This document shows positions 13,601 to 53,546 of a stretch of DNA of 64,000 bases, one piece after another. Below the pieces are notes generated by a model. The model did not search any database, was not told where the DNA came from, and saw nothing but the letters and a program-made list of their open reading frames with translations. Positions within the stretch are counted from its first letter, which is position 1. The number at the start of each line of letters is the position of its first letter. A program made the translations under genes and the position numbers. The DNA comes from Bolinopsis microptera (Eukaryota; Ctenophora; Tentaculata; Lobata; Bolinopsidae), in contig NC_087082.1 in NCBI RefSeq assembly GCF_026151205.1, positions 2,014,001-2,078,000 on the forward strand, in the 5' to 3' direction.

Positions 13601-14583
13601 AAGGCTAAAGTAGTTACAGCTGATGGTATAACAGAGATTTTTGATATCCTGGCTGGAGTACTGCAAGGAGACACTCTTGCCCCGTACTTGTTCATTATCG
13701 TGATTGACTATATCATGACAGTGACTATAGACGATGATGACTCGGACTCTGGGTTCACTCTCAGGCCTGCACGGAGTAGAAGGATTGGTGCCGAGAAAAT
13801 CGCAGACGTCGAGTTTGCAGATGATGTTGCCCTTATCACTGATACCATTGAAGGGGCAAAACTACTCCTGGACAGGCTTGAGAAAGCAGCACTGAGTGTT
13901 GGGCTAGCCATGAACGACACTAAAACTAAGTTCATGACTCTGAACATGACAGAGGAGGCGAGTAGTCTTAACAGTTGTGGTGGAAACCAGCTGGAAAAGG
14001 TGACAGACTTTGTTTACCTTGGAGCATGGATAGCAACAACAGAGAGGGACCTGCGGGTCAGAAAAGCTAAGGCTTGGGCAGCCTGCCACAAGTTGAAGAA
14101 GATGTGGAAGTCTGACCTTAGAAGAGGACTAAAGATCCGTCTATTTGTTGCTACTGTGGAGTCAATACTTCTTTATGGTTCTGAAACGTGGACGTTGACA
14201 GAGCAATTGAAGAAACGCATTGATGGCTGCTACACCAGAATGCTAAGGATGGCACTAAATGTGGATTGGAAGCAGCGCAAAACCAACAAAGAAGTCTATG
14301 GCAACCTACCAAGAGCAACCATGAAGATCCAAGAGCGCAGGATGCGACTAGCAGGCCATATCCACCGGCACCCAGAACTAGTCGCAAACCGCTTGCTACT
14401 CTGGGAACCAACTCATGGGGTGCGGAGTAGGGGGAGACCAGCCATGACTTATGTTGATAGCTTACGAGCTGACACGGGTCTCAACGACACTGGAGAAATG
14501 GGCGGACTTATGGCGGATAGAGTTTTATGGAGACAGCGCATCAATACTCGGACGCTGAAGCCGCCTTAAGTCAGTCAGTCAGT
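10676..14583 (+). mobile_element. Intact non-LTR retrotransposon (RTE/RTEX-like)
   Basis: The element is bounded by an 11-bp target-site duplication, CAATTTTACGA, at 10665-10675 and 14584-14594. It has a 5' region of about 750 bp, one long ORF (11426-14569) and a very short 3' end made of TCAG tetranucleotide repeats, as is usual for RTE-type LINEs. The related unoccupied sequence at about 10190-10235 continues straight through the insertion point. The clade is judged from RT motifs only. Confidence 0.85.
11426..14569 (+). CDS. LINE polyprotein: EEP endonuclease + reverse transcriptase, 1047 aa
   Basis: The ORF is uninterrupted over 1047 codons. Residues about 84-335 form an AP-type endonuclease of the EEP superfamily, with its catalytic set visible: FN (89), IQEHR, GDMNA, QIDYI and SDHR. 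The reverse transcriptase covers about 580-870, with FIDFKKAFDSVH (motif A), GVLQGDTLAPYLF (motif B) and FADD (motif C). A C-terminal region with ILLYGSETWTL and RRMRLAGHIHR, common in this LINE group, follows. All key residues are intact, so the protein could be active and drive target-primed reverse transcription in the nucleus. There is no separate ORF1. The N-terminal 80 residues are low complexity. The many antisense ORFs inside are shadows. Confidence 0.92.
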   Translation: MCRGLRMRHQPLKSMMMSYNNTRVKVPTTDLDVGGDRNDDSLTLKLPRRGVTDDMPAPSPGTKNNIKHQKKDGDALVSCSEVALVGTFNVRTAREGYKRLELVTQFLESGMEILGIQEHRIVHQEPIKIEKFKEGVSLVTVSAWRNGAGAATGGVGFLLTRRAYSAISLIKPYGSRVLTISFNGNPRLTTITAYSPTEAALVEEAEDFHNTLRQAMNDVPAHHLLITEGDMNARLGKVSEEDSRWYFHTRTNRNGELLRDTALECDMEITNIRFRKKVNKRWTFLSDGTLNKGQIDYILIRKKWKNSLKNTEVYNTFQSLGSDHRVVVCKIKVSFRKGHRPPKKVNYDYSALKSDGELQKKYAIEVRNRFSGLVEEDDGATESYGKLMVAIEAANKSLLPKKTRQKQIDPSSDPRVDSARRGLFLAKDQYHQEPCEEKREEVATKKDLLKACYKEVEEEILKGKIRKVEDTADRCKNKESWKLVNDISGRTNPSCGLVEGGSSTERLENWRKHFSGLLGQPPTVPDNSIPIRNIHPPLNIEDGPFTIEELRLAKKQIVEGKAYGDDGISPEVMKRVDIDDVILKFCNDALCDGLMPDQWKLSNIVPVPKKGDLTKTDNYRGISLTSIVSKTLNKMLLNRMKPSLEEVLRDNQNGFRPGRSTTSHILALRRIMEGARAKNLKATMVFIDFKKAFDSVHRGLLMKILKAYGIPEAIVRLIEGIYTSTKAKVVTADGITEIFDILAGVLQGDTLAPYLFIIVIDYIMTVTIDDDDSDSGFTLRPARSRRIGAEKIADVEFADDVALITDTIEGAKLLLDRLEKAALSVGLAMNDTKTKFMTLNMTEEASSLNSCGGNQLEKVTDFVYLGAWIATTERDLRVRKAKAWAACHKLKKMWKSDLRRGLKIRLFVATVESILLYGSETWTLTEQLKKRIDGCYTRMLRMALNVDWKQRKTNKEVYGNLPRATMKIQERRMRLAGHIHRHPELVANRLLLWEPTHGVRSRGRPAMTYVDSLRADTGLNDTGEMGGLMADRVLWRQRINTRTLKPP

Positions 14584-30900: not shown

Positions 30901-33900
30901 GCTGATGACTAAATTCTGGAGGGATGTTATGTCGAACTTTATTTCAGTTGGATTGTTCGTCGGAGTGCCCGCGACGAGACTGTGTCAAGCCAATAAAATC
31001 AAAAGGGATGTGCTGCCACTATTGCGGTAAGAAGTCATTTCAGGTACACTTTCACCCTTGTGTAATTAATTAAAGAAGATAATGTTAAAACAATACACAC
31101 GTTTCTATCACTAGTCAACTAGTTTAACATCAATGTATCTAAATATTTTGAGTGTGGAGGCAATGTCATTTCAATAAATAGATAATGAGTTATTAGACTC
31201 GCAGCTGGTAAGACCATGTTCATTGTTCCTTCGTCACATTCTGAAGGCCCAATTTTGCTTATTACTAGCAACTTGCACCTGTATCGTTAAATCGGACTTG
31301 GCGCTAGGATTGATGCGCGCTATGCGCGCGCATGCATGGGTATAGCATGGCTTTGTTTTCTTTGGACTACCGCATGGAATAACTGACAAAGCTAAATAAG
31401 ACAATTACGATGCAATAAGCCTTCTATATCTTCAATACTGTTCGTGATGTGTGATAAAACTTTAAACTCAAGTTAATATTGTCGTGGGTGGCCGATACCA
31501 GTCGCTCATTAATTAACTGCGTATTCAGGAGCTGAGGTGAGATTCAGGCCCCCTGCTGGCTTTTATCTCGAGAAGTTCAAGAAGAGTCTCGGAAATTTCC
31601 TCAAAGACGATCAGCTAGCTAGTGTAAGTTAGATCTCAACTTGGTGACATTATAAAATACTAGTGTACTGTGTAACCCCCTGTAAATGGTGAGAGAGTGT
31701 GAGAAAGGGAGAAAAAGTGAGACACTTTAGTATCACATTTGGAGTACAAAACCATTAATTTAACCACTTACTAAAGGCTGATTTTTAAAAATTTGCTTAT
31801 TGGCTTCGTCAGACTGTTGTCGAAACTGTACCGAAAAAACCAGTTCCATAACTCTTACCGTTTTCTTGATTAAGCCGTTCGGAAATTACACACGTACACA
31901 TATACACACATACCCACACATTTATTGGGGTTATTATTATAGATCCTTTGCATACATGATCGATATGAGATATACTGTTAAATAATACCAGTCTCACTAG
32001 TTGACTGATTGAGTGGTTGCTCCTGTAACACTGATTCCTACAGGACCAGATCTCAATAACAGTGTCCCTACAAGAGTACGAGCTCAGCACTCTCAGTATT
32101 CAGATCACTGTCTCGGACTCTATCGCAGGTACATTCCGAGTTAACCATTGTTGATATAAATATAATATACTACTTTCAGTGGTCATACTTTTCTCAGTAT
32201 TTTCTTCGTATGAGAATTTATTTGAAACTATGAAACTCATCCAATAAAAAACGTAGCCTTAACTGCAACATTTTAAAACAAAAATCGCAACTAAAATAAT
32301 AAACTGTTTTTTAAGAAGTCGTTACAACTTTTAAATGTCAAAATGAAACCAATTCAGACGTAAATCGATCTATTTAATATGTATTGTTTCGTAATAGCGT
32401 GTCTGTTGACAATGAAGTAAAACGCGTAGAAACTACGATAATACAGCCTATTGTTGCTATGGGGTCGTTCACATATTACGTAATCAGACGAGGGGGGGGG
32501 GGGTTTCAAAATGATAACGCTAGTGTAATTTTGACACAATAGCTATGTGTAAAAGTGATTACGGAGGGGGGGAGGGGGTTACAAATTGTTCAAAAAGTGA
32601 TTACATAATATGTGAACGATCCCTATTGCCTATATAGCAAATAACACTGGGCTCAGAGCATTCTTTAAATTTTTGTATGTATAATGTTTGTGGGGCTAAA
32701 TGTCCAGATTCCATATTCCAGGTGCAAATTTATAACGTTTCTATAATAGATTAATTGTTCAGCAAGGACTTTATTAAGTGTTCATATTTTGTCTTTTCAT
32801 TTCCACATCAGAGCTGTGACCAGCCTTCAATACACTTATCTTTTTCGCCAACACAATAACCAAGACAACCAAGAGCATGATAATCACAGCTTGACCGACG
32901 TTACCACAAACCAATATCGTTTTCAACGGACTCGCCTCTCCTGACTGTGCATCGGGTTCCACACACTTCAAACCATGTGTCTTTTCATTTTGGCACGTGA
33001 TATTCAAAGTAGATTGGAAGTCAAACTCTTTGAAGCCGTACCCAGGTTTGCATCTGACTGAGATGTTGCTGCCCGGTAAGTATAGTGGTAGTCTACCTTC
33101 AACGTTTCCATTAGCAACCTTGAACTTATTTCTTCGACACAAGGCAAGGTGCTCCTCAGGGAACAGAAGTCTCAGGTTGCTTAAGCGGATATTTGAGGTC
33201 CCAGGGTAGACGTACCTATCCAGACTTGTTATTGAGAAGAAGCAATTGTTGTTGTTTTCTGAATCAATGGGATCTAACACGCTAGATAACTGGAATATTG
33301 ATCCTCTGATGATTTCAAAGAGCTGATTCACATTATCGTCTTGGCAGAGAGCTAAAGAAGCCACTTTGCTGCTGGAATGGTGTGTTACGTCCGCTTCTAA
33401 ACAGTTGTTGAGAGAATTTGCTTGGTAAATTTTAAATCTGGTCTTATTCCCATTTTCATTTATTCTTTTCTCAAATAGCCATGGGATAGCTGATGTGCAA
33501 TCTTTCCAGTTCAACTCCATCAATTTCCCAAACCCCAAGCACAGTCTACTGTTCACGTTCTTCATCAAAACTCCCTTTGAATCCTTATTTGTTGTTGTTG
33601 CGCTTTTGATTGTCCTGCATGGCACCGATGGACTTTCCTCAAAATTCATCAAGCATTCAATGTTTCCTTGAACATCAAAAGATGAATGATTTCCTTGAGA
33701 TGATGAATTATGAAGGGGAAAGTGGTCGTAAATGCTGCAATTTGATGTTGTTGAGTCAAAAGTAAATGAGCAGCAGGTTTTGTGATACCAACAGTACATC
33801 TTGCAAGCAGTCACACTTTCAGCAGAGACATTTGTGATCACCTCACCAAACGATAATTTGCGAGATACGTCAGCCGTGTAGAACTCGTAACAGTGATCCG

Positions 33901-36825
33901 AATTTGTTGTCGGGTTCTTAGAATTGCCGGATCTGGAGGCTCCAGCTTCATTGTGCTTTGGATGTCTGTTTTGGGGCTCTTCTAATTGCCCATACTTTAT
34001 TAGAATCATCACAACAATTACCATATAGAACATTCCCTCCTGAACTGCAGGTATTTGTAATAATATCAAATCTTAAACAAAAAACTTTAATTTAAATTAA
34101 ATTAAACATTAAATTACTATACATTAAATGACATTAAATTAATATCAATAACCATCTGATCAAGCAGAGACTGACAGTTTGGTTACTAAGTTTAGTAGTG
34201 ACTAGTGATCCTAATTCTGTTTCTAGTATAGTTATAAATGGAGACTATGTTGCAATAAAAAGCAATTTACCGATTCAGATGCTCATGAACAACAATTCTA
34301 CATGGCAACGCGCACTTGCACTTTATACCTGGCAATTTATGGATACATAGGGGTCGTTCAAATATTACGTAATCAGCCGAAGGGGGAGGGGGTTTCCAAA
34401 TGCTTACGGTTGATTACGGGGGGGGGGGGGGGGGGGGGGTTTGGTCGTTGATTACGTAACCAAAATTTTCTTTTTTACCCTCTAGAATAATAACAATTAA
34501 ATTCAATTTGACAATATTTTAATTCAATTTCACTGTGATAGTGATAAAATTTAGAGATTAATCGGATATCCGACTATAGCAAGTAGTTTAGAAGGTGGTT
34601 GGACGGATATCAATCATTAATTTTCAGGAAAAATTCTCGAGGGCTAGGTCCTGAAAAATGTGTTTGACTAATTAATGATCAGGGTGAGAGTCATTCTCGA
34701 TGCGTACATTGAAAGGCAGTCTCCCAGCTTCCAAACTCGCATTGCATAGGGGAGACCTGCCCTCCGAGATCGAATTACAAAGGGGAGCCTCGACTCCAAG
34801 ATCGTATATCGAGGGTGAGGTGGGGACTCCGAAATCTAGATAGAAAACATGAAAACTTATGAATTTCGGAGACTTTTGAATTTCGGAAATATTTTACTGT
34901 ATTTTTTTCAGCTTGGAAAAGCAAAACGTAGTACCAAATTTAAAATATTTGAAAAACAGATTTTTTTACAAATTTTACAAAATGTATACAACATACAAGG
35001 GGCAGGGGGACCCTTGTGTTCGAGCTGGAAAATTGTTGAAGGTTTAAAAAGTAACGTGACGTCGTGACAGTTGAGTGTAGATTGATTAATCATCATCCTG
35101 CTTTACTAGGTCGAAATTTTGTAAAAACTTGGGTTTTTACAATTTTTTAATTTTAAAACGGCATAGAATTCTCCATTCTATGTCATTGACCCCCCTACTA
35201 CAACCGGCTGCTAAAGTAAGTAGTTTGAAAGGTGCTTGGACGGATATCATAACAATGATTACGGCTCATCATGATCAGGGTAGCATGAAACGTAAAGAAA
35301 TATGATTTCCAGAGAAAAAGTCAAAGGGGGGGGGGGGGGGAGGTTGGGTCTTAGTTACGGTTGATTAAGGAGGGGGGAGGGGGGAATTGCTGAAATATTG
35401 ATTGCGTAATATGTAAACGACCCCATATTTATAATATAAACTCCAAAAGATGCTGTGAAGGATGCACATGCAGCAAATCAGATCATGACTCTGTTAGTAG
35501 GGCACCCTACGAAAGAAATATAGACTTTTGGAGGTGTCGTCTGAATATATACTTATTTTTCAGTATTTAAATACTTAGGGGGACAAAAGCTTGGCGTGAG
35601 CGGGGAGCACCAAGCTTTTAAAACATTTAAAGATGGGAGAAAAGTTCAAAAGATTCGTTACAATACTTAGTACTTAATACAATAGATTCATATTTAGTAC
35701 TAATATGGGGAATGGGGGCTGAGGTGGAGACGTGACAGCTTGTCGCTATTGTTACTTTAAACTTATCAGATTGGGAGGATGTTGAGAAGATAGCTTTTCT
35801 GAAGAAAATAGTGTGCGTACCTATTCTACCCCCCCCCCCCCCCCCCCCCCCACCCGGCCCCTACTCAGTTCAGTAAACTTTCAGACGGAATAGAAGGTGC
35901 TGGGTACGAGAGCTCTAAGATAGCATCTAAAATCCGCAACTACATAGTTGATTACGACATAGTACGCGCTTCTGAATTGTTCATCGTTCAAAGTCACCTG
36001 CAATTTCATCCGGATCGTACTGAAGCTATCGGATCACCTCAGGCACCGTCAGGTAATTTCTTTTGTTTAGGGGGTTACTAAAGTGCTTTTTTGCGTGAAT
36101 CACAGAGTTCAAGTAGATAATTACCCCTGATATTTACCCCTGACAATTACCCCCTGATAGCTGGTATACAAAGCTGGGTTTTGTACGTTGTCCTCAGTGT
36201 ATCCTTCGTTCTCCTCATTATCATAGTTGTCCTCCTCTTCAAGTGTTCACGTCGTTACAGAGAAAACACCAACAACCAGCCTCACGTCAGGTACGACATT
36301 TTATTTTTGGGGGTTCTACTTCTAGCTCAGTTTGTGAAACGACGTTTTCTTTTTGTGGGTTCTACTTCTAGCTCAGTTTGTGAAACGACGTTTTCTTTTT
36401 GTGGGTTCTACTTCTAGCTCAGTTTGTGAAACGACGTTTTCTTTTTGTGGGTTTTAGTTCAACTTTAATGTTATATGTCAATTATTCTTCAGACTGGATC
36501 ACGGAGTGCTGCCCCGGGCCCTTGATAGGAGATTCAAGCCTTGCGTTCCTGCTATGGTTTGTATTTTTTAATTTTTACACCTATTCATAATTTATCATAA
36601 TTTTTTATCTACAGCAACCAATCACTGCTCAGTATTCACTAAACCAACCAATCCCAGGATCAAGATATCCCCACGTACGAGGAGGTGCTGATGGAAGATA
36701 TGTTGACACGTGGTATTGCTCCTGATCAGCCTCGTAACCAAGAGAACGTACTGCGCGCGGCACCACGTCGTCCTGGTTACGCCGAGATTCCTACAACTGA
36801 CATATGTGATCGTGCCCGTGTCTGA
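24981..36825 (+). CDS. AMN: Amnionless homolog, complete, 12 exons, about 475 aa
   Basis: Exons by splice consensus and frame: 24981-25005, 25128-25256, 25929-26063, 26214-26359, 30096-30299, 30948-31026, 31529-31623, 32044-32128, 35885-36052, 36161-36290, 36493-36556 and 36658-36825. Exons 1-2 join to a signal peptide (MTILLILSAVLCAEG). An N-terminal region follows, with the amnionless-type repeats of xYW/xWxxPxNW (KYWLHSNNWNNPINW, QYSWGDPNNWYSP). Exon 6 is a VWC-like Cys cluster (DCSSECPRRDC to CCHYC). Exon 10 holds one TM segment (about WVLYVVLSVSFVLLIIIVV), and exon 12 the cytoplasmic tail. In vertebrates AMN pairs with cubilin to form the cubam endocytic receptor; the length matches (human about 450 aa). 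The tail lacks FxNPxF but has PTYEEV and PGYAEI, which fit YxxPhi endocytic signals. Exon 12 has an alternative upstream acceptor (36614) that would truncate the tail. Intron 8 hosts an antisense receptor gene. Confidence 0.85.
26360..30095 (+). other. Large AMN intron 4, no nested gene seen
   Basis: The 3.7 kb are AT-rich. They contain an inverted GTTAGAGTTAGGGT / ACCCTAACTCTACAC pair at about 28652-28708 and a CACACATG-rich short repeat at about 28453-28505. The ORF at 28319-28543 has no domain character. Confidence 0.55.
32461..32624. mobile_element. MITE with GGGGTCGTTCAC termini
   Basis: It begins GGGGTCGTTCACATATTACG and ends ATTACATAATATGTGAACGATCCC, giving TIRs of about 28 bp, with TAT on both sides. 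It contains a G-run and TGATTACGGAGGGGG. Related ends occur at 21455-21490, 34350 and 35390-35426. Confidence 0.8.
32774..34033 (-). CDS. PAN/ricin-B/sushi type I membrane protein, 419 aa (intronless, inside AMN intron 8)
   Basis: The first ATG (34033, MFYMVIVVMILIK) gives a signal peptide, and just upstream is CTGCAG/TTCAG, so a 5' non-coding exon is possible. Residues 48-127 look like a PAN/apple-type domain (Cys 48, 77, 81, 87, 88, 99, 127). Residues about 153-245 form a ricin-B-type lectin unit (RLCLGFGK to NVNQLFEI). Residues 299-357 form a sushi/CCP domain with four cysteines (299, 328, 347, 357) and GYGF. One TM helix (about 379-396) and a short basic and acidic tail follow. Many N-x-S/T sites are present. 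The architecture suggests a cell-surface carbohydrate- or protein-binding receptor; the ligand is unknown. The polyA signal AATAAA (32770-32775) overlaps the stop codon. It lies antisense in AMN intron 8. A paralog at 44586-45655 lacks the PAN domain. Confidence 0.8.
   Translation of the reverse strand: MFYMVIVVMILIKYGQLEEPQNRHPKHNEAGASRSGNSKNPTTNSDHCYEFYTADVSRKLSFGEVITNVSAESVTACKMYCWYHKTCCSFTFDSTTSNCSIYDHFPLHNSSSQGNHSSFDVQGNIECLMNFEESPSVPCRTIKSATTTNKDSKGVLMKNVNSRLCLGFGKLMELNWKDCTSAIPWLFEKRINENGNKTRFKIYQANSLNNCLEADVTHHSSSKVASLALCQDDNVNQLFEIIRGSIFQLSSVLDPIDSENNNNCFFSITSLDRYVYPGTSNIRLSNLRLLFPEEHLALCRRNKFKVANGNVEGRLPLYLPGSNISVRCKPGYGFKEFDFQSTLNITCQNEKTHGLKCVEPDAQSGEASPLKTILVCGNVGQAVIIMLLVVLVIVLAKKISVLKAGHSSDVEMKRQNMNT
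34034..34350 (-). promoter_or_regulatory. 5' region of the PAN/ricin/sushi gene
   Basis: About 280 bp here (34052-34330) match 53547-53835, including GGAGACTATGTTGCAATAAA. Conservation in both paralogous loci and the position directly upstream of the gene make this the probable promoter and 5' UTR. No individual element can be assigned with confidence. Confidence 0.55.
34351..35426. mobile_element. About 1.08-kb TIR element of the GGGGTCGTTC family
   Basis: It starts GGGGTCGTTCAAATATTACG and ends ATTGCGTAATATGTAAACGACCCC. G-rich and TGATTACGG subterminal motifs occur at both ends. The flanks join to GGATACAT/ATTTATAATATAA, which is present uninterrupted at about 41457-41477. No transposase is visible. 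The ORFs around 34849-35096 have no recognisable domain. Confidence 0.8.
35430..35850 (+). repeat. Duplicated upstream block of the receptor locus, copy A
   Basis: AAAAGATGCTGTGAAGGATG and the following sequence recur at 41700-41835 and 55635-56050. This shows that the receptor locus exists as several duplicated units in this window. Confidence 0.8.
36306..36455. repeat. About 47-bp tandem repeat in AMN intron 10, three copies
   Basis: Units contain GGTTCTACTTCTAGCTCAG followed by TTTGTGAAACGACGTTTTC. The ORFs through it are artefacts of the repeat. Confidence 0.9.
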
Positions 36826-44585: not shown

Positions 44586-45655
44586 TCATATTTGGTCTTT
44601 ATTCATTTCCACATCAGAGCTGTGTTCAGCCTTCAATGTATATATCTTTTTTACCAACACAATAACCAAGACAACCAAGAGCATGATAATCACAGCTTGA
44701 CCGAAATTACCACAAACCAATATCGTTTTCAACCGAATCGTCTCTCCTGGCTTTGCATCGGGTTCCACACACTTCAAACCATGTGTCTCTTCATTTTGGC
44801 ACGTGATATTCAAAGTAGATTGGAAGTCAAACTCTTTGAAGCCGTACCCAGGTTTGCATCTGACTGAGATGTTGCTGCCCGGTAAGTATAGTGGTAGTCT
44901 ACCTTCAACGTTTCCATTAGCAACCTTGAACTTATTTCTTCGACACAAGGCAAGGTGCTCTTCAGGGAACAGAAGTCTCAGGTTGCTTAAGCGGATATTT
45001 GAGGTCCCAGGGTAGACGTACCTATCCAGACTTGTTATTGAGAAGAAGCAATTGTTGTTGTTTTCTGAATCAATGGGATCTAACACGCTAGATAACTGGA
45101 ATATTGTTCCTCTGATGATTTCAAAGAGCTGATTCACATTATCTTCTTGACAGAGAGTTAAAGAAGCGATTGATTTGGTGTTTTTAAATTGTGCTTCCAA
45201 ACAATACCTCAGAGAATCTGCTTGGAGGATTTTAAATCTGGTCTCATTTCCACTTTCTTTTTTCTCAAATAGCCATGAGATAGCTGATGTACAACCTTTC
45301 CAGTTTAACTCCATCGACTTTCCAAATCCTAAACACTGTCTATTGTCAATGTTTTTCATCAAAACTCCCTTTGAATCCTTATTTGTTGTTGTTGCGCTTT
45401 TGATTGTCCTGCACGGCACTGAAGGACTTTCCTCAAAATTCATCAAGCAGTCCATGTTTCCTAGAACATCAAAAGATGAATGATTTACTTGAGATGACGA
45501 ATCATGAAGGGGAAAGCTGTTGTGAATGCTGCAAGGTTCTTAGAATTACCGGATCTGGAGGCTCCAGCTTCATTGTGCTTTGGGTGTCTGTTTTGGGGCT
45601 CTTCTAATTGCCCAGACTTTATTAGAATCATCACAACAATTACCGTATAGAACAT
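44586..45655 (-). pseudogene. Paralog of the PAN/ricin/sushi receptor gene, PAN domain deleted
   Basis: It aligns with 32774-34033. The signal-peptide segment (MFYTVIVVMILIK, 45655) and the ricin, sushi and TM part (continuous frame 44586-45455, about 289 codons) remain. A deletion of about 190 bp at about 45524 removes the PAN coding region and shifts the frame, so the two parts are no longer joined. Sushi and TM regions are nearly identical to the intact gene, while the ricin region has diverged more. The tail ends in MNKDQI instead of MKRQNMNT. A 7.9-kb insertion separates it from its promoter block at 53547-53835. It is probably a pseudogene, although the downstream frame could still make a signal-less fragment. 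Confidence 0.8.
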
Positions 45656-46400: not shown

Positions 46401-47831
46401 AAATTGTAAATAAAATAAATCTATATATTTTTGTATCTTTGTATTTTTGAAATTCAGAATAAGACTGAAGTACCCTAGGGCCAACAAATTTGGGTCACAA
46501 TAAATTTGGTTACTATAATTTTGGTTACCACAATTTTAGGCACAAATTTCGCAAATTTTTAGTCTGCAACAATTTTAGTCTAATTTTTTGACTTTCGAGA
46601 CCATTTTCCATTTCATTTATTTGATTTTTCCATTATTAAGCTATTTTTTTCAATTTCGCATATAAAATCATACTTTAAAGTGAACTAAGTACAGACAACG
46701 GAACACATGTATCAGAAATTTCCCATGGGCCCACGTGCACACCGCGCGCCAAACGGTCACGTGGACAAATTATCAACCTCGTGATCCTGTAACTTACACC
46801 ATACGCGCGTATTTTGGTAAGTAGGAATATTCTCGATCTGGGAACATTCCAACGGGGAGCCAATGTTACATACATTAGTTACATATCATAGCATATAATT
46901 TCTTATTACATGCAGTAGGGACCTGTTATGTGTACAGTTAGCGATATTTAACTGTTTATCATAAACATATGATAAAGTGTGTAAGCTCAATAAAATTTAA
47001 TTCATATATGCTCCATTAAAATTTTGGTCAACTTCAAAATTAGTCGTCAAAAAATTTAGTCACATGAAATTTGGTTTACAACAATTTTAGTCAAAAGTTT
47101 GACTAAATTTATGGTAGACTAAATTTGTCGTTCTTAAGGTATAGTGAAATGTTTAATTAGCACTGTAAAGTGTAAAGTTTAGAATATTCAAATAAACTAT
47201 TATAACCATTAATAAATAAATAAATAAATAAATAAATAAAGTCAATTTTTACAGCACAGCAATATATATCTAAATATCAGATCCTCTGTAATCATAATGT
47301 ATAAAAAAAGGAGCTTTTCTCTGTGCTGAAGGATGAATCAAGGCAGATCATGGTTCTGTTAGCAGGCCACCCTAGTTATGGACAATACATATATATAAAA
47401 TAATTAAATTATGATTTTAAAATTGTGTCAAGATTGAACTAAAACATAACTCAGGGTAAAATAGACGTATTCCCTTCGTCAAATTAACTATTTACAATAC
47501 TAAACTTAAACGAACTCCGGGTAAAATAAACGTAATCCCTTTGTCAAACTTGCTATTTACAATAAGTTAATAAATTAATACGGTTGAAAATTATTTCATA
47601 TTCAATAACAATGTAGCATCAATATAATTGATACAAATGAGGAGCATACAGTGAGAATTGCACATAACAGGAGGACTGGAGGTATGGAGCAATAATGATT
47701 GACAGTGCACCTTTCCACTGATGTTCCTAATTTCCTGTAGTAGCTTAATAGGCATGGAAATACTTTGATTGCAGGGGATAGATTGGATTCACTTATGTAC
47801 TGAGATAACTTAACCGAAATAACATAACTGC

Positions 47832-50762
47832 CTAGATACATTGGCTAGTGTTGGGTGGGATCATGAATTTATCGTAAGAGTTATCCCCTTGGTAATTCTC
47901 ATCAGTTAGCAACATATTCATAAGAGTTTCTTTGTATAACTTAGAAAATTTCTTAACGTCGTCACACTCTCTAAGGGACTTTGGTAATATGTTCCAGGCC
48001 TTAGTTCCTAGATAGTTAAACTCCTTGTGAGATCTTGATTTAGGAGTATAAAGATTGCAGTTTTCTGCCTCACGTGATCCACCAGAAATATACGAGAATT
48101 TCCCGATAAAATGCTTTGGACATGTTTCATTGATTATACGGTACATATATGAGCTAAGATGAACCTGTCGTCTCAAATGGAGAGGAAGCCATCCCATAGT
48201 TTTGTATACATTAACCGACCTCTCTCTGATGTTTACATCTAGGGCTATTTTAGCAACCTTTTTGTACATGATATCTAACTCTCCTAGTCGTTTTTTATAT
48301 GTTCTTGACCAGATGGTGTCTAAGTAGTCAAAATGTGGCAACATAAGTGCATTAGCAAACATCTTCCTGAACTTAAGAGGGAGAAGTTTTTTTGATCTAT
48401 GCATAGCACCAATTCTTTTGGATATCTTTTTCTTAATGTTATCAATATGTTCATTAAATGTCAATCTGCTGTCAACTATAAGTCCAAGGTACTTATGGGA
48501 TTTAGTTTCACAGATTACCAAAGTAAGGTCATCACAAATTTCAACAAGGATGGCATCAAGGTTAGGCTTAGAGTCAAGGATCATTAGTTTTGTTTTTTCA
48601 TTATTCAGGGATAGTTTATTAGCCTGAAGCCATCTGATAACTAATTTCAACTCTTGTTTGATGTTACCATAGTTTCCTCTAGATATATTGTCAAAATATA
48701 ATGCACCGTCATCAGCAAATAGATAAGGTTTAGAAAATAGGCATGCATTAGGCAGGTCATTGATAAAAATGCTGAATAGAATTGGTCCTAATATACTTCC
48801 TTGAGGCACTCCAGAGTTCAATGAATGTAAACTGCTTATCCTACTCCCAACTCTAGTTTGCTGTAATCTATCTGTGAGGAAGCTCCTAAACCAGCTCAAT
48901 GCAGTATCTTTTATTCCATAATGCTTCAGCTTTTGAATGAGAATATCATGGTTAACAGTATCACATGCCTTTCTGATGTCCAGGAAGATAATTGCAGGAT
49001 GCTTGGCACTGTTCTTAGCAGTAAATATACGATCAAACAGATCTAACATGAGATAAGTTGTAGAGTGATCTTTACGGAAACCATATTGATGCTCTGAAAG
49101 TATTCCCTTTTCATCAAGATATTGAGTCAGTTGGGAGTTCACACAAAATTCGATGCACTTTCCAAGAATCGGTAAAATTGAGATTGGTCGATAATTACTA
49201 GGATTCTCAGTATCACCATCCTTATGGATTGGGGTGACTTTTGCAACCTTGCAGCTGTTTGGCATGATGCCACTGGATAAACTCAAATTTACAAGATGTG
49301 TTAATGGAGCAATAAATGCAGGTAAAATTTGTCTAAACACTCTCAATGGTATATGATCATTAGTGGATTTGCTACAAGGGATACTTGCCACATAGTCTAA
49401 GATATTGGACTCAGTTATTTCAGTAAAGCTATTCAAGCTGGTCTCGTTGTCAATCTGCTCATTTTGTAGATAAGATAGAAATTCATTTTCATTTTCCAGC
49501 TGCACTTCTGCTTGGATCTTTGGACCTATTTCAGCAAAATATTTATTGGTGGTTTCAGCATCAAGATTGTTATTGATATTGTTAGCTTTAACAGGCAGAT
49601 TTGATGCTGTCTTTATCGTTTTCCATACACCCTTTAGATCATTCATGGCACACTTGGCTTTCAGTTCTGTTGCTAAGTTAGTCTTCCTATTAATTCTAGA
49701 CAAATAGGTTGAATAGTTTCTCTGCCGTTTATATGCCATCCATAATGAGTCACATTTATTACAGTGTATAAGACCATTTGGATGTATACGTCTGTTCTTG
49801 TTGTGTGTTAAAAATTTACGGTAAAGTTTCCCTTTCAATTTCTTACTTTCTAAAAATTCTGGAGATGGCTTATGGATGTAATCACTATGGCACTTAATTT
49901 GTTTAATTGGACAGAAGTGATCATAGTAGTGATCAATATGTTCGTTTAAACCATCAACTGCATCATTCAGACTAGTTGAATCTATTATTGGTCTATAATC
50001 ACAGGTTTCCAAAAATTCTTTAAGAGCAGTAACATTCATTTTGCTGTGATCTCTTATTAGTAACTTCTTGAATTTTGAGGCCTTATGCACATTGAAATCG
50101 ACAATGAACTTTACGACCTGATGATCTCCTATACAATCATCAAGGACTTTGCAGTCAAGAAACTTGGAGTAAGTGTTTGTTATGACAACATCGATTGTGG
50201 TCTTTGTGATTCTGTTTCCTAGTTTAGCAATGCGGGTAATATCCTGAACTACCTGTACCATTCCAAACATTTTCATTGTAATGTCTAATTTCTTATAGTT
50301 CATACTGCTGATGTTGTTTTGGTCTACATTTACATCACCCAGCCAAATAACATTCTTACTTCCTATACTCATCATGCAGTCTGTCATATAATCTAAAAAT
50401 TTGTCAAGAGGACTAAACAACTCAGATCTGTAGAAACAGCAGATGAAAATATTGCAATCTGTAAGATGGATCCAAATAGCCTCGATTTGGTCATATTGCA
50501 AAACTAAGTTTAGTTGAATCATTTTAAACTTTATGTGCTCACTGATGAGAATGCCACATCCCCCATGACCATTGTCGTTAGGACGGTCTTTGCGGATAAA
50601 AGTAAAATTCTTGGGTAGGTTTAGACTGGCTGAGTCAATATCCGACTTAAGATTTGTTTCATTCAGGCATAAAACATCTAATTTCTCTTTCCAGATTAGA
50701 TCTTGGATTTCAAGACATTTTGGCATACCTGTTAGTCCTCCCTGCATGTTGCAATGTCCCAC
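47832..50762 (-). CDS. LINE ORF2: EEP endonuclease + reverse transcriptase, 976 aa
   Basis: Residues about 1-235 form an EEP endonuclease (GHCNMQGG with the conserved Asn, CLNETN, LGDVNVD, TIDVVI, IGDHQVV). The RT covers about 480-760: RPISILPILGK, FLDIRKACDTVNH (motif A, with Cys where Phe is usual), SGVPQGSILGPILF (motif B) and LFADDGALYF (motif C). The C-terminal thumb region with HFDYLDTIW follows. The codon at 50762 is GTG, and the frame stays open upstream only to a stop at 50844-50846, without an ATG. The first in-frame ATG is codon 6, which would remove the conserved Asn of the endonuclease. Translation may start at a non-AUG codon, by reinitiation after ORF1, or the start has been lost. 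Otherwise the catalytic residues look intact. Confidence 0.9.
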   Translation of the reverse strand: MGHCNMQGGLTGMPKCLEIQDLIWKEKLDVLCLNETNLKSDIDSASLNLPKNFTFIRKDRPNDNGHGGCGILISEHIKFKMIQLNLVLQYDQIEAIWIHLTDCNIFICCFYRSELFSPLDKFLDYMTDCMMSIGSKNVIWLGDVNVDQNNISSMNYKKLDITMKMFGMVQVVQDITRIAKLGNRITKTTIDVVITNTYSKFLDCKVLDDCIGDHQVVKFIVDFNVHKASKFKKLLIRDHSKMNVTALKEFLETCDYRPIIDSTSLNDAVDGLNEHIDHYYDHFCPIKQIKCHSDYIHKPSPEFLESKKLKGKLYRKFLTHNKNRRIHPNGLIHCNKCDSLWMAYKRQRNYSTYLSRINRKTNLATELKAKCAMNDLKGVWKTIKTASNLPVKANNINNNLDAETTNKYFAEIGPKIQAEVQLENENEFLSYLQNEQIDNETSLNSFTEITESNILDYVASIPCSKSTNDHIPLRVFRQILPAFIAPLTHLVNLSLSSGIMPNSCKVAKVTPIHKDGDTENPSNYRPISILPILGKCIEFCVNSQLTQYLDEKGILSEHQYGFRKDHSTTYLMLDLFDRIFTAKNSAKHPAIIFLDIRKACDTVNHDILIQKLKHYGIKDTALSWFRSFLTDRLQQTRVGSRISSLHSLNSGVPQGSILGPILFSIFINDLPNACLFSKPYLFADDGALYFDNISRGNYGNIKQELKLVIRWLQANKLSLNNEKTKLMILDSKPNLDAILVEICDDLTLVICETKSHKYLGLIVDSRLTFNEHIDNIKKKISKRIGAMHRSKKLLPLKFRKMFANALMLPHFDYLDTIWSRTYKKRLGELDIMYKKVAKIALDVNIRERSVNVYKTMGWLPLHLRRQVHLSSYMYRIINETCPKHFIGKFSYISGGSREAENCNLYTPKSRSHKEFNYLGTKAWNILPKSLRECDDVKKFSKLYKETLMNMLLTDENYQGDNSYDKFMIPPNTSQCI

Positions 50763-51018
50763 TGCAAGCTTTTTGGCATGGTATGAAACTGTGATTTTAC
50801 TAATGCACGGGTTAATGCAAGAACTGCTGTGAGAGCATGAAAATTATTCCAATTTATGCTGCTATAAACTTGTCAGAATAAGATAAATTGCAGAACTGGC
50901 AAATTTGTATGAGATAATAACAAAACTTTCTAAAACTTCAATAAACATGAGGAACAATGTGTAATTATCCCTTATCTAGAATCTAGATGAAATAAATGTT
51001 AACAATCTTTCTGAAAAT

Positions 51019-52893
51019 TCAAACTTGCTTATGGGCCCAATACTTCAGAAATTTAGCAAGTCGAATAACACCGCTTGTATTGAGGTGACAGTTATCAGAT
51101 ATTTTTGCAGATGGTCTGGCAAAATAAAATTCTTTCCTGAATCCACTTCTATTATAGTTAAATAAATTATGGGTGCTAATGTAATTAAAACAAGAATCTT
51201 TGCTACACATATCCTTAATAACCTTATTCAGCTCTGCCACAACATCATTGCGGCCTTTTGTACTCCTGGGAAGAATATTGAGAACATTAATTGTTGCATT
51301 CGGATACACTGACTTGAGATAATTTAATAGATTACTAATGTCACCTGCTGCATCCTTCAGTGACTTTGAGCCAAAATAGACTGTGTTCACATTATTAGTT
51401 CCTGTCATAATATAAATAATAGATGGGGATGGAACGGAGTGTAGGTCAGTTTTTAGTTTATTTAACATTACTTTGGCATCAGCCCCAGGATAAAACAGTT
51501 TACTAGCACTAACAGTGGACGATGATAACTTGTCCGCATCAAGAAACCTGAACATAGAGCTGCTTATGAATAGGACAGACTTTTGTGAAGCTTTGGCTGG
51601 CTGTTTGCAAACTGAGAGTGCAGGTGAAGAAGAGTCTGTCAGTTTGTGTCCTGAATGAGGGATGGGTGGGGGCGGTGAACGCAGACCAAACTCAGTTGAC
51701 TGAGTGATCCTAGGGGGCTTCATCAGTCTTAGGGTGATGCTGATCCGGGGTTCATCACACATTTCGTCTGGCAGTATCTCATGTTGAAAGTCAGCCTGAG
51801 ACAATTTGGACATGATGAAGACATCTCCATGCTGAAGCTGCACAGAGCCCACAACTTCATTGCTGCCGTTTGATCTAATTTGCAGTGTTCTCGTCGCACC
51901 AAGTGAAATGGTTACAATATCAGAGTGTTCTACAATACATGATTCAGAATCGCTATGAGCTGGCATGAACTCTGCTCCAGTTTCATATAGATTGACGAGA
52001 ATACTATTGTGTCTGAAATTGGGTAATATCACATTAATGTAGGAGCTGAGTTTAGCAAGGTAGGAATCATTGTGTACACTTTTTGGGTCATGTGTTGCAC
52101 CTGAATACTCATAGGGAAAGTCACCAAAATAAACCGATTTCCTGTTTTTAAAACCGTGACTGAACTCAAGTTCTTCCATTAATAGATCAAGTGAAAATTT
52201 AGAGAATGGACCATCATCTAGTAGGGTAACTGGTTTCACTGGTGATGGGGAACAAGTTACAGATATATTCATTGGCCCCGGTGTTATAGGATCGTAGACA
52301 GGGGCAGAGACCAAGTTTGGATATTTGTCTCTGGGCTTAGGGGTGTTGATCCGTGATTCACCAGTAGCAGTAGATACAGGGAGATCAGACTCATCATCCT
52401 CGTCTGCCATAACCTCGTTAACAACAATCTCACTGATAACAATCTCGTTTCCAACAACCTCCTGTGGAACAACCTTGTCCACGACATCGTTGTCAACAAA
52501 CAAACTGTCCGATACAACATCTTCCACAACAATGTCATCTACATCAAACGCTTCTACTTGATTGATAACAACGTGTGACTGAGGGGTAATGGTTATGATC
52601 TCACATTCAATCTCCTCTGATAAGTTCGGCAGCAAATTTTCACACTTAAAACTCTGTTCTTGTATTTGAGTTTGATCTGATATGAGACTATCATTGTACT
52701 GAGCAATGAGATCACTAGTTCTGATAATTTCATTCAATAAAGACAACTTTTTTTCTAAAAAGTCAATCTTGATGTCTTTTGACAGACAATTGTTACAGTT
52801 CTCTGATTTTTCAGACTGGAATGAAAAGTTCAAATGTTCTAAAGGGCGCTCACAAAAGTGGAGACTAATGTCTGAGCTCTGATTATTTGACAT
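51019..52893 (-). CDS. LINE ORF1: coiled coil, AlkB-type dioxygenase domain and SGNH esterase, 624 aa
   Basis: Residues 33-95 have a CNNC pair and a predicted coiled coil. Residues about 113-170 are a Val/Asp/Glu-rich repetitive linker. Residues about 224-395 match an AlkB-type 2-oxoglutarate/Fe(II) dioxygenase. They contain VYFGDFPYEYSG, NLYETGAEFMPAHSDSE with the HxD iron ligands (H313, D315), the distal His (H371 in FQHEILP), and RISITLR (383-389), the AlkB RxNxTxR-type 2OG-binding signature. Residues about 438-620 are an SGNH/GDSL hydrolase: FISSSM (Ser block), Gly470, GTNN (Asn500) and DNCH (D600, H603). Esterase ORF1 proteins are known in CR1/L2-type LINEs. An added AlkB domain is not part of the architecture I know. 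AlkB enzymes remove alkyl groups from nucleic acid bases, so protection or editing of the element's RNA or cDNA is a plausible but untested role. No CCHC knuckle or RRM is seen. Confidence 0.88.
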   Translation of the reverse strand: MSNNQSSDISLHFCERPLEHLNFSFQSEKSENCNNCLSKDIKIDFLEKKLSLLNEIIRTSDLIAQYNDSLISDQTQIQEQSFKCENLLPNLSEEIECEIITITPQSHVVINQVEAFDVDDIVVEDVVSDSLFVDNDVVDKVVPQEVVGNEIVISEIVVNEVMADEDDESDLPVSTATGESRINTPKPRDKYPNLVSAPVYDPITPGPMNISVTCSPSPVKPVTLLDDGPFSKFSLDLLMEELEFSHGFKNRKSVYFGDFPYEYSGATHDPKSVHNDSYLAKLSSYINVILPNFRHNSILVNLYETGAEFMPAHSDSESCIVEHSDIVTISLGATRTLQIRSNGSNEVVGSVQLQHGDVFIMSKLSQADFQHEILPDEMCDEPRISITLRLMKPPRITQSTEFGLRSPPPPIPHSGHKLTDSSSPALSVCKQPAKASQKSVLFISSSMFRFLDADKLSSSTVSASKLFYPGADAKVMLNKLKTDLHSVPSPSIIYIMTGTNNVNTVYFGSKSLKDAAGDISNLLNYLKSVYPNATINVLNILPRSTKGRNDVVAELNKVIKDMCSKDSCFNYISTHNLFNYNRSGFRKEFYFARPSAKISDNCHLNTSGVIRLAKFLKYWAHKQV

Positions 52894-53546
52894 AGTTATA
52901 TTATCAAGAGTTCAATGTTCAGAAGCACAATAAACACTGTAAACGCAATACCTTCAGTCCAGATAGTAGTTTTGATGAGAATAGTTTTGATGAGAAGGAG
53001 GAGGATGAGTAATCTTCAAGTACACTCACAGCAGTCCTTTGCACGTCAACACTTACGCTCGTCTATCATATCTCATACCTCAATAAATGTAATAGATTTG
53101 TAGTGTTGTAATTAGTTTAAAAGCCCATAATTTTTCGCCAGCCCACCAATAGATAATGTTCCCCTTCAAGTGGCATTTTATTTTATTGATTTACACAACA
53201 TAAATTTAAGCATAATATAGTGTAGAGTTTCTGTCACAACAAGACTGCAATTCCTAGTAACAACTAACAACACTTAATTTCTCAACAATTTGTATCTGGT
53301 TCAAGTAAGAGCCTTGTCTCCAATAACTCATCTGGACTAATGTTTTGGTGTGTGCAAAAGCTTTCAAGCCCGCACTTTCCTTGTCCCGTTAGTTGCCTGT
53401 CCGTTTACAACCTAATTAGCAGTTAAGGACAGAAAGTCATACACCAAATGAGCATTATATTTTCATTGTTATAAATTTGCTGATTCTGTAAAATTTGCTA
53501 AAATCAAATTTTTTGTTTCATTGAATTTCTAGTTTCATTGAGTTAT

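Follow-up and report, generated by a model that had tools for sequence, protein, structure and literature searches.

An AlkB-type dioxygenase domain beside an SGNH esterase in ORF1 of a ctenophore LINE, with relatives in other LINEs and in Helitrons

The role of LINE ORF1 proteins is still unsettled. In the type IV ORF1 of CR1, L2 and RTEX elements, of which ZfL2-1 is an example, a zinc-finger/zipper or a coiled coil is followed by an SGNH domain, and ORF2 encodes an EEP endonuclease and a reverse transcriptase; for this esterase group, binding and chaperoning of the transcript and targeting to membranes by the esterase have been proposed (PMC3905857, PMC4120745). The accessible text of these two papers describes no AlkB domain in such proteins. 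The ORF1 described below has the SGNH domain and the type of ORF2 in common with these elements, and a zipper-like segment, recognized by eye alone, precedes the esterase; an AlkB domain lies between the two.

The family A element and its reading frames

In the window, that is, the whole stretch of 64,000 nucleotides analysed, lies a LINE of the ctenophore host, a recent copy of what we call family A (Table 1). A second copy (L043, at G000:C2) is 99.76% identical over 5,912 aligned columns, and the identity stops at both element borders. No target-site duplication was evident when both ends of these two copies, and only these, were read by eye. The simple-repeat 3′ tail is present in both copies whose 3′ end was read, and copies are many and dispersed. 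The 5′-terminal segment is shared beyond the family: 41 bp are identical in family E (L017), and in a second family B locus (L014) the match is just 19 bp. In three of ten family A loci (L003–L005), the match to a 60-bp query covered nothing but its final 21 bp. That the terminal 50 bp serve as a promoter is our inference.

Table 1. Coordinates of the family A element and its parts in the window
Feature	Position	Strand	Basis
Full LINE element, family A (5,911 bp)	47212..53122	-	copy comparison
(ATTT)n 3′ tail	47212..47242	-	element end
ORF2 open frame, EEP endonuclease and reverse transcriptase (FADD), 1003 aa	47832..50843	-	
ORF1, 624 aa: CxxC/leucine-zipper-like segment, acidic linker, AlkB, linker, SGNH	51019..52893	-	translation, Pfam
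SGNH esterase domain, residues 438-622; S446, G470, N500, D600, H603	51028..51582	-	
AlkB (2OG-Fe(II) dioxygenase) domain, residues 224-400	51694..52224	-	Pfam, phmmer, AF2, Foldseek/VIA-align
RISITLR, residues 383-389, RxxxxxR motif	51727..51747	-	both R in 24/24 transposon AlkBs
Distal His Fe(II) ligand H371	51781..51783	-	invariant in 24/24 transposon AlkBs
HxD Fe(II) ligands H313, D315	51949..51957	-	invariant in 24/24 transposon AlkBs
CxxC and leucine-zipper-like stretch, residues 33-60	52714..52797	-	by eye from translations, no program score
5′-terminal 50 bp	53073..53122	-	identical to family B locus L011

An earlier note on this DNA had described an intact ORF1 of 624 codons, and this frame is real: it is open from an ATG on the minus strand, and frame 1 of the plus strand has many stops over the same stretch. 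The genome holds 20 full-length, stop-free copies of the family A ORF1, including that of the window, and they are 98–100% identical. The intact EEP/RT frame that the note had placed downstream on the same strand is also present, but the gap of 257 bp that it gave requires a GTG start for ORF2; the frame has no ATG ahead of the catalytic Asn of the endonuclease. Pfam detected RVT_1 in ORF2 at 1e-34 and Exo_endo_phos at 1.8e-4, the latter under its own curated cut-off, and the EEP and RT motifs were located by position. The CxxC/zipper-like stretch of ORF1 has a counterpart in families B–E, recognized by eye and not scored by a program.

Identity of the AlkB and SGNH domains

The complete AlkB signature set reported in the earlier note (HxD at 313-315, H371 and RISITLR at 383-389) is in place, and its claim that ORF1 fuses an AlkB domain to an SGNH esterase is borne out. 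On the AlkB side, Pfam 2OG-FeII_Oxy_2 matches residues 261-389 with an E-value of 3.6e-18, which passes the curated cut-off, and phmmer searches of the PDB with the bare sequence returned ALKBH3 first (human, 9e-15), followed by ALKBH2 (2e-6) and E. coli AlkB (0.003); neither ALKBH5 nor FTO was among the 34 PDB sequences found at E<=1. On the SGNH side, the Pfam GDSL/SGNH match to the window ORF1 is weak (8.5e-5, under the cut-off).

Failure of structure prediction to give a double-stranded beta helix had been set beforehand as a result that would refute the AlkB assignment. The AF2 model has the expected fold, with a pLDDT of 90.7 and a pTM of 0.86, and its best structural matches are ALKBH2 and ALKBH3 (Z 20.0–22.4, rmsd 1.7–2.4, 164–166 residues), whereas ALKBH5/6, FTO and AlkB, among the matches listed, score lower (Z 15.7–17.1). 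Viral AlkBs were also matched, and those listed are 14–29% identical. Because the other 29 rows of the AF2 input alignment were all bacterial ALKBH2/3-like proteins, the model is biased toward the ALKBH2/3 fold, and the phmmer search is the only evidence for ALKBH2/3 affinity free of that bias. Sequence and modelled fold together support the assignment of the domain to the ALKBH2/3-type Fe(II)/2-oxoglutarate dioxygenases; its activity is untested. A chance reading frame or coincidence of motifs was considered and is ruled out by the E-values, the copy number and the fold.

The Fe ligands, the arginines of RxxxxxR and the Glu of HxDxE are conserved in all 24 transposon AlkBs aligned (21 from LINEs and three from Helitron ORFs). 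At the Asn of RxNxTxR, by contrast, all 24 have Ser whereas 16 of 16 cellular rows have Asn, and the Trp that precedes HxD in 15 of the 16 cellular rows is found in none of the 24. Because of these two replacements, the substrate of the transposon enzymes may have shifted. In ALKBH3, Tyr143 binds the methylated base (PMC10816986). The corresponding position, assigned by counting from His191, is aromatic in every transposon row of one alignment, with Phe in families I–K and Tyr in the others; for rows P–U, read separately by eye, it is Tyr, Phe or Trp.

The SGNH residues named in the earlier note, G470, N500, D600/H603 and SSSM at 444-447, lie where it had placed them; this catalytic serine block departs from the canonical GDS. 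The Ser, Gly, Asn and DxxH of SGNH blocks I, II, III and V are invariant in five of five families (A–E). Profile-profile comparison joined this SGNH domain to that of five of the six P–U families with a probability of 98.6, and all five of those families pass the cut-off of Pfam PF13472. Against the esterase structure of ZfL2-1 (4c1b), the profile of these five families scored 5.1e-8, whereas that of families A–E scored only 0.074. A structure model from the single SGNH sequence was poor (pLDDT 49.6); Foldseek with this low-confidence model gave 21 matches at E<=0.001, named as esterases, PAF-acetylhydrolases or hydrolases, all of which we take to have the SGNH fold.

Distribution, selection and phylogeny of the AlkB module

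Absence of the domain from all other copies would likewise have refuted the earlier reading. AlkB was found in the other full-length family A copies and in many LINE families besides; its occurrence extends to 21 representative LINE ORF1s that belong to several RT lineages. It was also found in Helitrons, where an SGNH-AlkB-Rep-PIF1 array occupies a single frame of 3,388 codons; at the L024 Helitron locus, a Helitron_like_N Rep and a PIF1 helicase lie within one ORF. The AlkB-bearing transposons of this ctenophore genome are many, young-looking and of two unrelated kinds, and the trait common to the two classes is a single-stranded nucleic-acid intermediate. The earlier note had not foreseen a module common to several LINE lineages and Helitrons of one genome.

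We had intended LINE families with SGNH only as a contrast set and dropped them, as six of seven loci picked from the PF13472 list as lacking AlkB (L036–L041) carry a diverged AlkB by translation and alignment. Pfam, run on five of the six (not L039), detected 2OG-FeII_Oxy_2 in L037 and L038, gave only weak PF03171 matches in L036 (0.0022) and L041 (0.028), and gave no AlkB-type match at E<=1 in L040. Since Pfam misses diverged AlkBs, Pfam counts of AlkB loci are lower bounds; the Pfam AlkB locus listing includes at least one locus of family A, a broken copy. For L042, a LINE with an SGNH ORF1, there is no AlkB among the 25 listed of its 27 Pfam families, and upstream of another LINE in the window (11405-14569) the same strand offers no ORF that reaches 90 aa; AlkB is therefore dispensable for some LINEs here. 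A pattern scan of viral contigs for relatives gave 46 pattern matches, none of which was confirmed. The genome also has host ALKBH-like genes (L027–L029).

The earlier note had proposed that an AlkB dN/dS below 1 among copies be sought. The family A copies are too alike for any ratio; in five related pairs from other families the expectation was met, the four pairs of LINEs giving 0.094, 0.067, 0.090 and 0.179 and the one pair of Helitrons 0.21. A ratio >=1 was seen in 0 of 1000 bootstraps for each pair, and the highest upper bound was 0.36. In the three pairs among families I, J and K, AlkB has a lower dN/dS than the SGNH domain, the linker and the N-terminus, and in the Q/S pair it has a higher one than SGNH (NG86, 0.179 and 0.092). 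These ratios show purifying selection on AlkB in related element pairs.

In a tree computed without viral AlkBs, the transposon AlkBs form one group separate from the cellular ones (support 84/88). A second capture of AlkB is not excluded, because the LINE I/J/K domains join the transposon group at that support only; P_L036 is a long branch. The placement of the Helitrons inside the LINE AlkBs is insecure, since an AU test did not reject a grouping of LINE AlkBs without them (p 0.0599). Many pairs of transposon AlkBs are just 20–35% identical overall. AlkB and RT distances correlate over 19 families (Mantel r 0.829, reached in 0 of 5000 permutations), and the module therefore looks old. A clade seen with RT, {G,H,M,N,O}, falls apart in the AlkB tree; the RT tree lacks families J and K, whose retrieved sequences stop short of the RT.

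Possible functions and comparison with known systems

The hypothesis that we prefer, with about even confidence, is that the AlkB domain clears the single strands of its own element of m1A/m3C-type lesions or marks. ORF1p would accompany the element RNA, and the SGNH domain would direct it to membranes, as proposed for ZfL2-1. Inside the same particle, AlkB would oxidatively strip N1-methyladenine/N3-methylcytosine-type adducts that prevent base pairing, be they damage or marks set by the host, and the element's RT could then go on copying the RNA template and the first-strand cDNA. The target of the module in Helitrons would be the DNA intermediate, which is single-stranded, and the substrate common to both classes would be single-stranded transposon nucleic acid. 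The function is inferred, without activity, expression or binding data, as are the repair, mark erasure and escape from silencing suggested in the earlier note. Because the ZfL2-1 esterase showed no binding of oligo(A) RNA (PMC3905857), association of these ORF1 proteins with RNA through SGNH cannot be taken as given.

Alternatively, AlkB might serve counter-silencing, erasing a mark set by the host (m6A on transposon RNA; 6mA or m1A on DNA or RNA) that would expose the element to silencing, instead of repairing damage. This is possible, if less probable than removal of m1A/m3C-type adducts: the AlkB encoded by orchid Ty3/Gypsy elements acts in vitro as an m6A demethylase on ssRNA, a role of this kind being suggested by the authors (PMC9289625), and m6A modulates L1 activity (PMC7873242). 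The orchid protein, however, is ALKBH5-like, whereas the present domain is nearest ALKBH3/2 by sequence and not ALKBH5/FTO; it also occurs in Helitrons, whose intermediate is DNA; and for L1 the reported effects run in the opposite direction, the writer METTL3 aiding and the eraser ALKBH5 suppressing retrotransposition (PMC7873242).

We doubt that the AlkB fold serves ORF1p chiefly in nucleic-acid binding or as a structural element, with dispensable catalysis. ORF1 proteins are presumed to bind element RNA, ALKBH folds bind single strands and no activity has been measured, all of which would suit such a role, but a role in binding alone would not demand what is observed, the survival of every Fe and 2OG residue in all 24 divergent rows. 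More doubtful still is action on another substrate, by protein or lipid hydroxylation or by modification of tRNA or host RNA that tunes translation or host defence; the AlkB relatives ALKBH4, ALKBH7 and ALKBH8 do have non-nucleic-acid or tRNA substrates, whereas the nearest solved structures here are those of the repair enzymes ALKBH3/2. That a piece of a host gene recently hitch-hiked, without selection, in a single LINE family was considered since host ALKBH-like genes exist; this found no support and is scarcely conceivable, being contradicted by the several RT lineages, the correlated AlkB/RT distances and the dN/dS of 0.07–0.21; a recent host-gene fragment is ruled out by the tree, the spread and the dN/dS.

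Extending the dealkylase hypothesis, one could envision the enzyme as an ancient core part of ctenophore retrotransposons: after a single acquisition, most LINE lineages with an ORF1 would have retained it, LINEs would have exchanged it as an ORF1 cassette and passed it to Helitrons, and it would defend single-stranded intermediates from host chemical modification; we offer this larger scenario tentatively and think it rather unlikely as a whole. If a conserved ORF1 dealkylase is truly common to LINEs and a rolling-circle DNA transposon, modification of transposon RNA or ssDNA would limit transposition enough to select a dedicated remover. It becomes testable whether reverse transcription of LINEs is limited by m1A/m3C lesions or marks, and whether the host places these; the varied transposon AlkBs are also candidates for dealkylases that act on single strands.

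Among the best-ranked papers from searches of open-access literature, none described AlkB in a LINE ORF1 or in Helitrons; a buried mention or a Repbase entry is possible. The transposon domains share the fold and the Fe/2OG residues with the repair dioxygenases ALKBH3/ALKBH2, their nearest PDB sequences, but are transposon-borne and SGNH-fused, with Ser for Asn in RxNxTxR and no Trp before HxD. The Helitrons have the known arrangement of Rep and PIF1 in one long ORF and differ in the N-terminal SGNH-AlkB. Plant RNA viruses are likewise selfish replicons with AlkB in a multidomain protein (PMC544882), there the replicase, and the listed viral matches have the low identity given above. The DNMT retrotransposons of dinoflagellates and charophytes, present in hundreds of copies, also took a host nucleic-acid-modifying enzyme, but a methyltransferase adds marks and a dioxygenase removes them (PMC5890265). 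The nearest published case that we found is that of the orchid (Phalaenopsis) Ty3/Gypsy elements, relatives of Tat/Ogre, which likewise encode an AlkB-family 2OG-Fe(II) dioxygenase with HxD...H kept and with activity shown in vitro (PMC9289625). The orchid enzyme is described as a recent acquisition of a plant LTR element, m6A-type and encoded in a separate, extra paALKBH5-like ORF (PMC9289625), whereas the domain described here is ALKBH2/3-like, fused to SGNH and carried by animal LINEs, across several lineages, and by Helitrons.

The window element and its copies

The earlier note had described an intact 624-codon ORF1 lying upstream of an EEP/RT ORF2 on the same strand, and both frames were indeed found to be open, with the RT of the second matching RVT_1 at 1e-34. 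The second copy used for setting the borders of the element is 99.76% identical to it, and the 3' end is an (ATTT)n tail. The note had also proposed checking for further copies. A search of the same genome (264.65 Mb) with ORF1 gave at least 81 matches (71 of 983 candidates scored), among which at least 20 copies, including that of the window, span residues 1-622 or 1-624 without stops at 98-100% identity. The ORF2 search gave at least 48 matches (47 of 6,464 candidates scored); at least 24 of these, again counting the window's, span residues 1-975 without a stop at 99-100% identity. This family, termed A, looks young.

Features in the window and at related loci of the same genome
Feature	Position	Strand	Remarks
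ORF1, family A	51019-52893	-	open, 624 codons from ATG
ORF2 frame, family A	47832-50843	-	1003 codons, downstream of ORF1, same strand; EEP endonuclease and RT
Start of ORF2 frame	50747-50843		no ATG ahead of the endonuclease catalytic Asn; first Met just past it
Full element, family A	47212-53122	-	5,911 bp; borders set by alignment to second copy
Identical 5'-terminal tract	window 53073-53122; L011 3045-3094; L017 411-451		41-50 bp, 100% identical
Second LINE, frame	11405-14569	+	intact; RVT_1 9.9e-32, endonuclease; RTE-like by eye
Open frames	32777-34072 and 44589-45539	-	weak Sushi-type match in each; PAN also in 32777-34072
ORF2 of L020 and L032	L020 2610-5600; L032 2981-5701		PHD/C1-like finger ahead of endonuclease (best E 1e-4 to 2e-4)
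Ionotropic glutamate receptor gene clusters	C12:11782391-11809362; C3:15860547-15936263; pairs on C6 and C8		many genes single long open frames

The lack of an ATG before the catalytic Asn suggests non-AUG or coupled initiation of ORF2; the ORF2 starts of families B (loci L011, L014) and C (L015) have the same look over the 30 residues compared. The identical 5'-terminal tract is found across families with far-diverged ORF1s and is perhaps a promoter or recombination tract. Only 19 bp of it are in common in the second B locus (L014), and its first 39 bp had no match in three of ten family A loci. For the second LINE of the window, no upstream ORF of at least 90 codons was found on its strand back to position 7000. 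The two open frames with Sushi-type matches are perhaps related host genes or exons. A glutamate-receptor ligand-binding domain encoded in this genome matched the Mnemiopsis iGluR ML032222a at 225 bits and the Pleurobrachia protein 4zdm at 198 bits, with 112 bits for the next-ranked protein, which identifies the host as a ctenophore.

The AlkB and SGNH domains of ORF1

The AlkB-type domain claimed in the earlier note was borne out by sequence and by structure prediction. It matched Pfam 2OG-FeII_Oxy_2 at 3.6e-18, and the bare sequence, compared with PDB sequences, recovered human ALKBH3 (9e-15), ALKBH2 (2e-6) and E. coli AlkB (0.003), with neither ALKBH5 nor FTO at E<=1 in that search. The AlphaFold2 model (pLDDT 90.7, pTM 0.86), built from an alignment with 29 bacterial relatives, lies nearest to ALKBH2 and ALKBH3 (Foldseek E to 4.7e-13; VIA-align Z 20.0-22.4, rmsd 1.7-2.4 over 164-166 residues), and ALKBH6, ALKBH5, FTO and AlkB rank below them among the best 50 matches (Z 15.7-17.1). 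Because the bacterial rows pull the model toward the ALKBH2/3 subfamily, the independent evidence is the PDB sequence search.

The SGNH domain of the window ORF1 is weak in Pfam by itself (8.5e-5), and its single-sequence model is poor (pLDDT 49.6), with esterases and PAF-acetylhydrolases as best Foldseek matches. The SGNH residues (S446, G470, N500 and D600/H603, numbered as in the window ORF1) are invariant across families A-E. With the A-E profile, 2hsj, a putative platelet-activating-factor hydrolase, came up at 5.6e-6 and 4c1b, a LINE esterase, at only 0.074. The same profile matched the SGNH profile of five of the families P-U with Prob 98.6; the latter profile reached 4c1b, from ZfL2-1, at 5.1e-8.

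The AlkB H, D and H, both arginines and the Glu of HxDxE are retained in 24/24 transposon rows (21 LINE, 3 Helitron). These rows all carry Ser at the RxNxTxR position, where all 16 cellular rows (three host, human ALKBH3 and 12 bacterial) carry Asn, and the Trp ahead of HxD is present in 15/16 cellular rows but in 0/24 transposon rows. As to whether AlkB dN/dS lies below 1, a check suggested in the earlier note, the NG86 values were 0.094 for D/E, 0.067 for I/J, 0.090 for J/K, 0.179 for Q/S and 0.21 for two Helitrons; no bootstrap (0/1000 in each of the five pairs) reached 1, and the top upper bound was 0.36. In all three comparisons of I, J and K, AlkB has the lowest dN/dS of the ORF1 parts; in Q/S the SGNH value (0.092) is below that of AlkB; in other pairs dN/dS was saturated or undefined in some ORF1 parts. 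Nine other family A copies differ from the window by one nonsynonymous and six synonymous changes in AlkB, by four and 19 in the SGNH domain and by 22 and none in the rest of ORF1, tallied per copy so that shared changes are counted repeatedly.

Spread and history in LINEs and Helitrons

The AlkB domain is not peculiar to the window element, being present in 21 representative ORF1s of this genome (families A-U). Pfam detected it in 15 (A-O); the remaining six (P-U), picked as supposedly SGNH-only, proved on translation and alignment to carry a diverged AlkB, and of the five scanned with Pfam, two showed 2OG-FeII_Oxy_2. Searching the whole genome with PF13532 gave at least 151 matches, 149 of the 150 listed being stop-free in open frames of 142 to 3,388 codons; since the best 150 of 587 candidates were scored, this is not a random sample. 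The loci sampled were ten ORF1-match loci and 31 more, one of which (L043) served for borders only. RT and/or endonuclease were found in the next frame by Pfam in A, D-J, M, N and Q; in B, C, L (incomplete), O, P and R-U the RT was seen as alignable sequence, and for K the assignment rests only on near-identity to J.

Three layouts recur: CxxC/zipper-AlkB-SGNH (A-E), PHD-like finger-AlkB-SGNH (G, H, M, N, O; the top PHD-type hits being weak, 1.2e-4 to 0.051) and AlkB-coiled coil-SGNH (I-K). Pfam gave no SGNH match at E<=0.1 for families H, I, M and N, where the domain was assigned by eye. The LINE L042, whose ORF1 combines a coiled coil with SGNH and whose RT is distant, had no AlkB among the 25 Pfam families listed for it. 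The L020 and L032 families have a weak PHD-like finger in ORF1 besides the PHD/C1-like finger of their ORF2.

Three AlkB loci belong to Helitrons and not to LINEs. A single frame running through L024 and its continuation L124 encodes, in this order, SGNH (9.7e-6), AlkB (5.4e-21), DUF6570, Helitron_like_N (3.8e-22) and a PIF1 helicase (2e-22). L030 is similar by eye, and in L031 the SGNH-AlkB part and DUF6570 lie in two separate frames. The AlkB/SGNH order is thus the reverse of that in LINEs. The SGNH-AlkB N-terminus of these Helitrons is accompanied by long Pro/Ala-rich and short repeated linkers.

A tree of 40 AlkBs placed all 24 transposon sequences on one side of a branch (support 84/88), and the 21 other than I-K stayed together at 99/96. 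The Helitrons were placed among the LINEs, and LINEs without Helitrons were not rejected (AU p 0.0599). An RT tree of 20 rows (19 AlkB-bearing and L042) gave the lineages {A-E}, {F,L}, {G,H,M,N,O} and {P-U}, of which the AlkB tree recovered all but {G,H,M,N,O}, a set that it interrupts with P-U and the Helitrons. Distances between AlkBs are correlated with those between RTs (r 0.829; 0/5000; 19 families), which argues for an old acquisition of AlkB followed by descent. Families B and C share 97-98% DNA identity in ORF2 and the 3' end (95.6% over part of one comparison) and about 70% in ORF1, with identity changing in the spacer that separates the two ORFs (L011/L014 versus L012/L015); on top of descent, ORF1 cassettes have thus been exchanged between LINE lineages.

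D/E and Q/S have near-identical RTs and more diverged AlkBs. Three ALKBH2/3-like single-frame ORFs (L027, L028, L029), whose frames contain no transposon domains, were regarded as host genes; two of them, L027 and L029, cluster loosely with human ALKBH3.

Proposed function and relation to known elements

Architecture, intact catalytic residues, constraint and spread are observed here; enzymatic activity is inferred. We propose that AlkB acts, in the manner of ALKBH3, on single-stranded nucleic acid held in the ORF1p particle. Both m1A and m3C prevent base pairing and halt RTs, and clearing them from the RNA or the cDNA would help reverse transcription; the Helitron AlkB would target ssDNA. Membrane targeting, proposed for a LINE esterase that did not bind oligo(A) RNA (PMC3905857), could unite both in one particle. 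The main rival is that AlkB erases host marks, as proposed for an orchid element (PMC9289625). That AlkB is ALKBH5-like and resides in an extra ORF of a Ty3/Gypsy LTR element, and the paper was the only one on AlkB in retrotransposons among the top-ranked open-access literature matches.

In the relevant passages, Metcalfe and Casane (PMC4120745) list esterase, PHD, RRM, CCHC and zipper types among their ORF1 classes, without words beginning oxygenase or dioxygenase, and report the esterase type only from vertebrate groups of the Jockey superfamily; Schneider et al. (PMC3905857) give chordates, cnidarians and sponges. What seems new here, in a survey of this genome only, is that a captured AlkB is added to the known esterase-type LINE ORF1 and that the combination extends to Helitrons.
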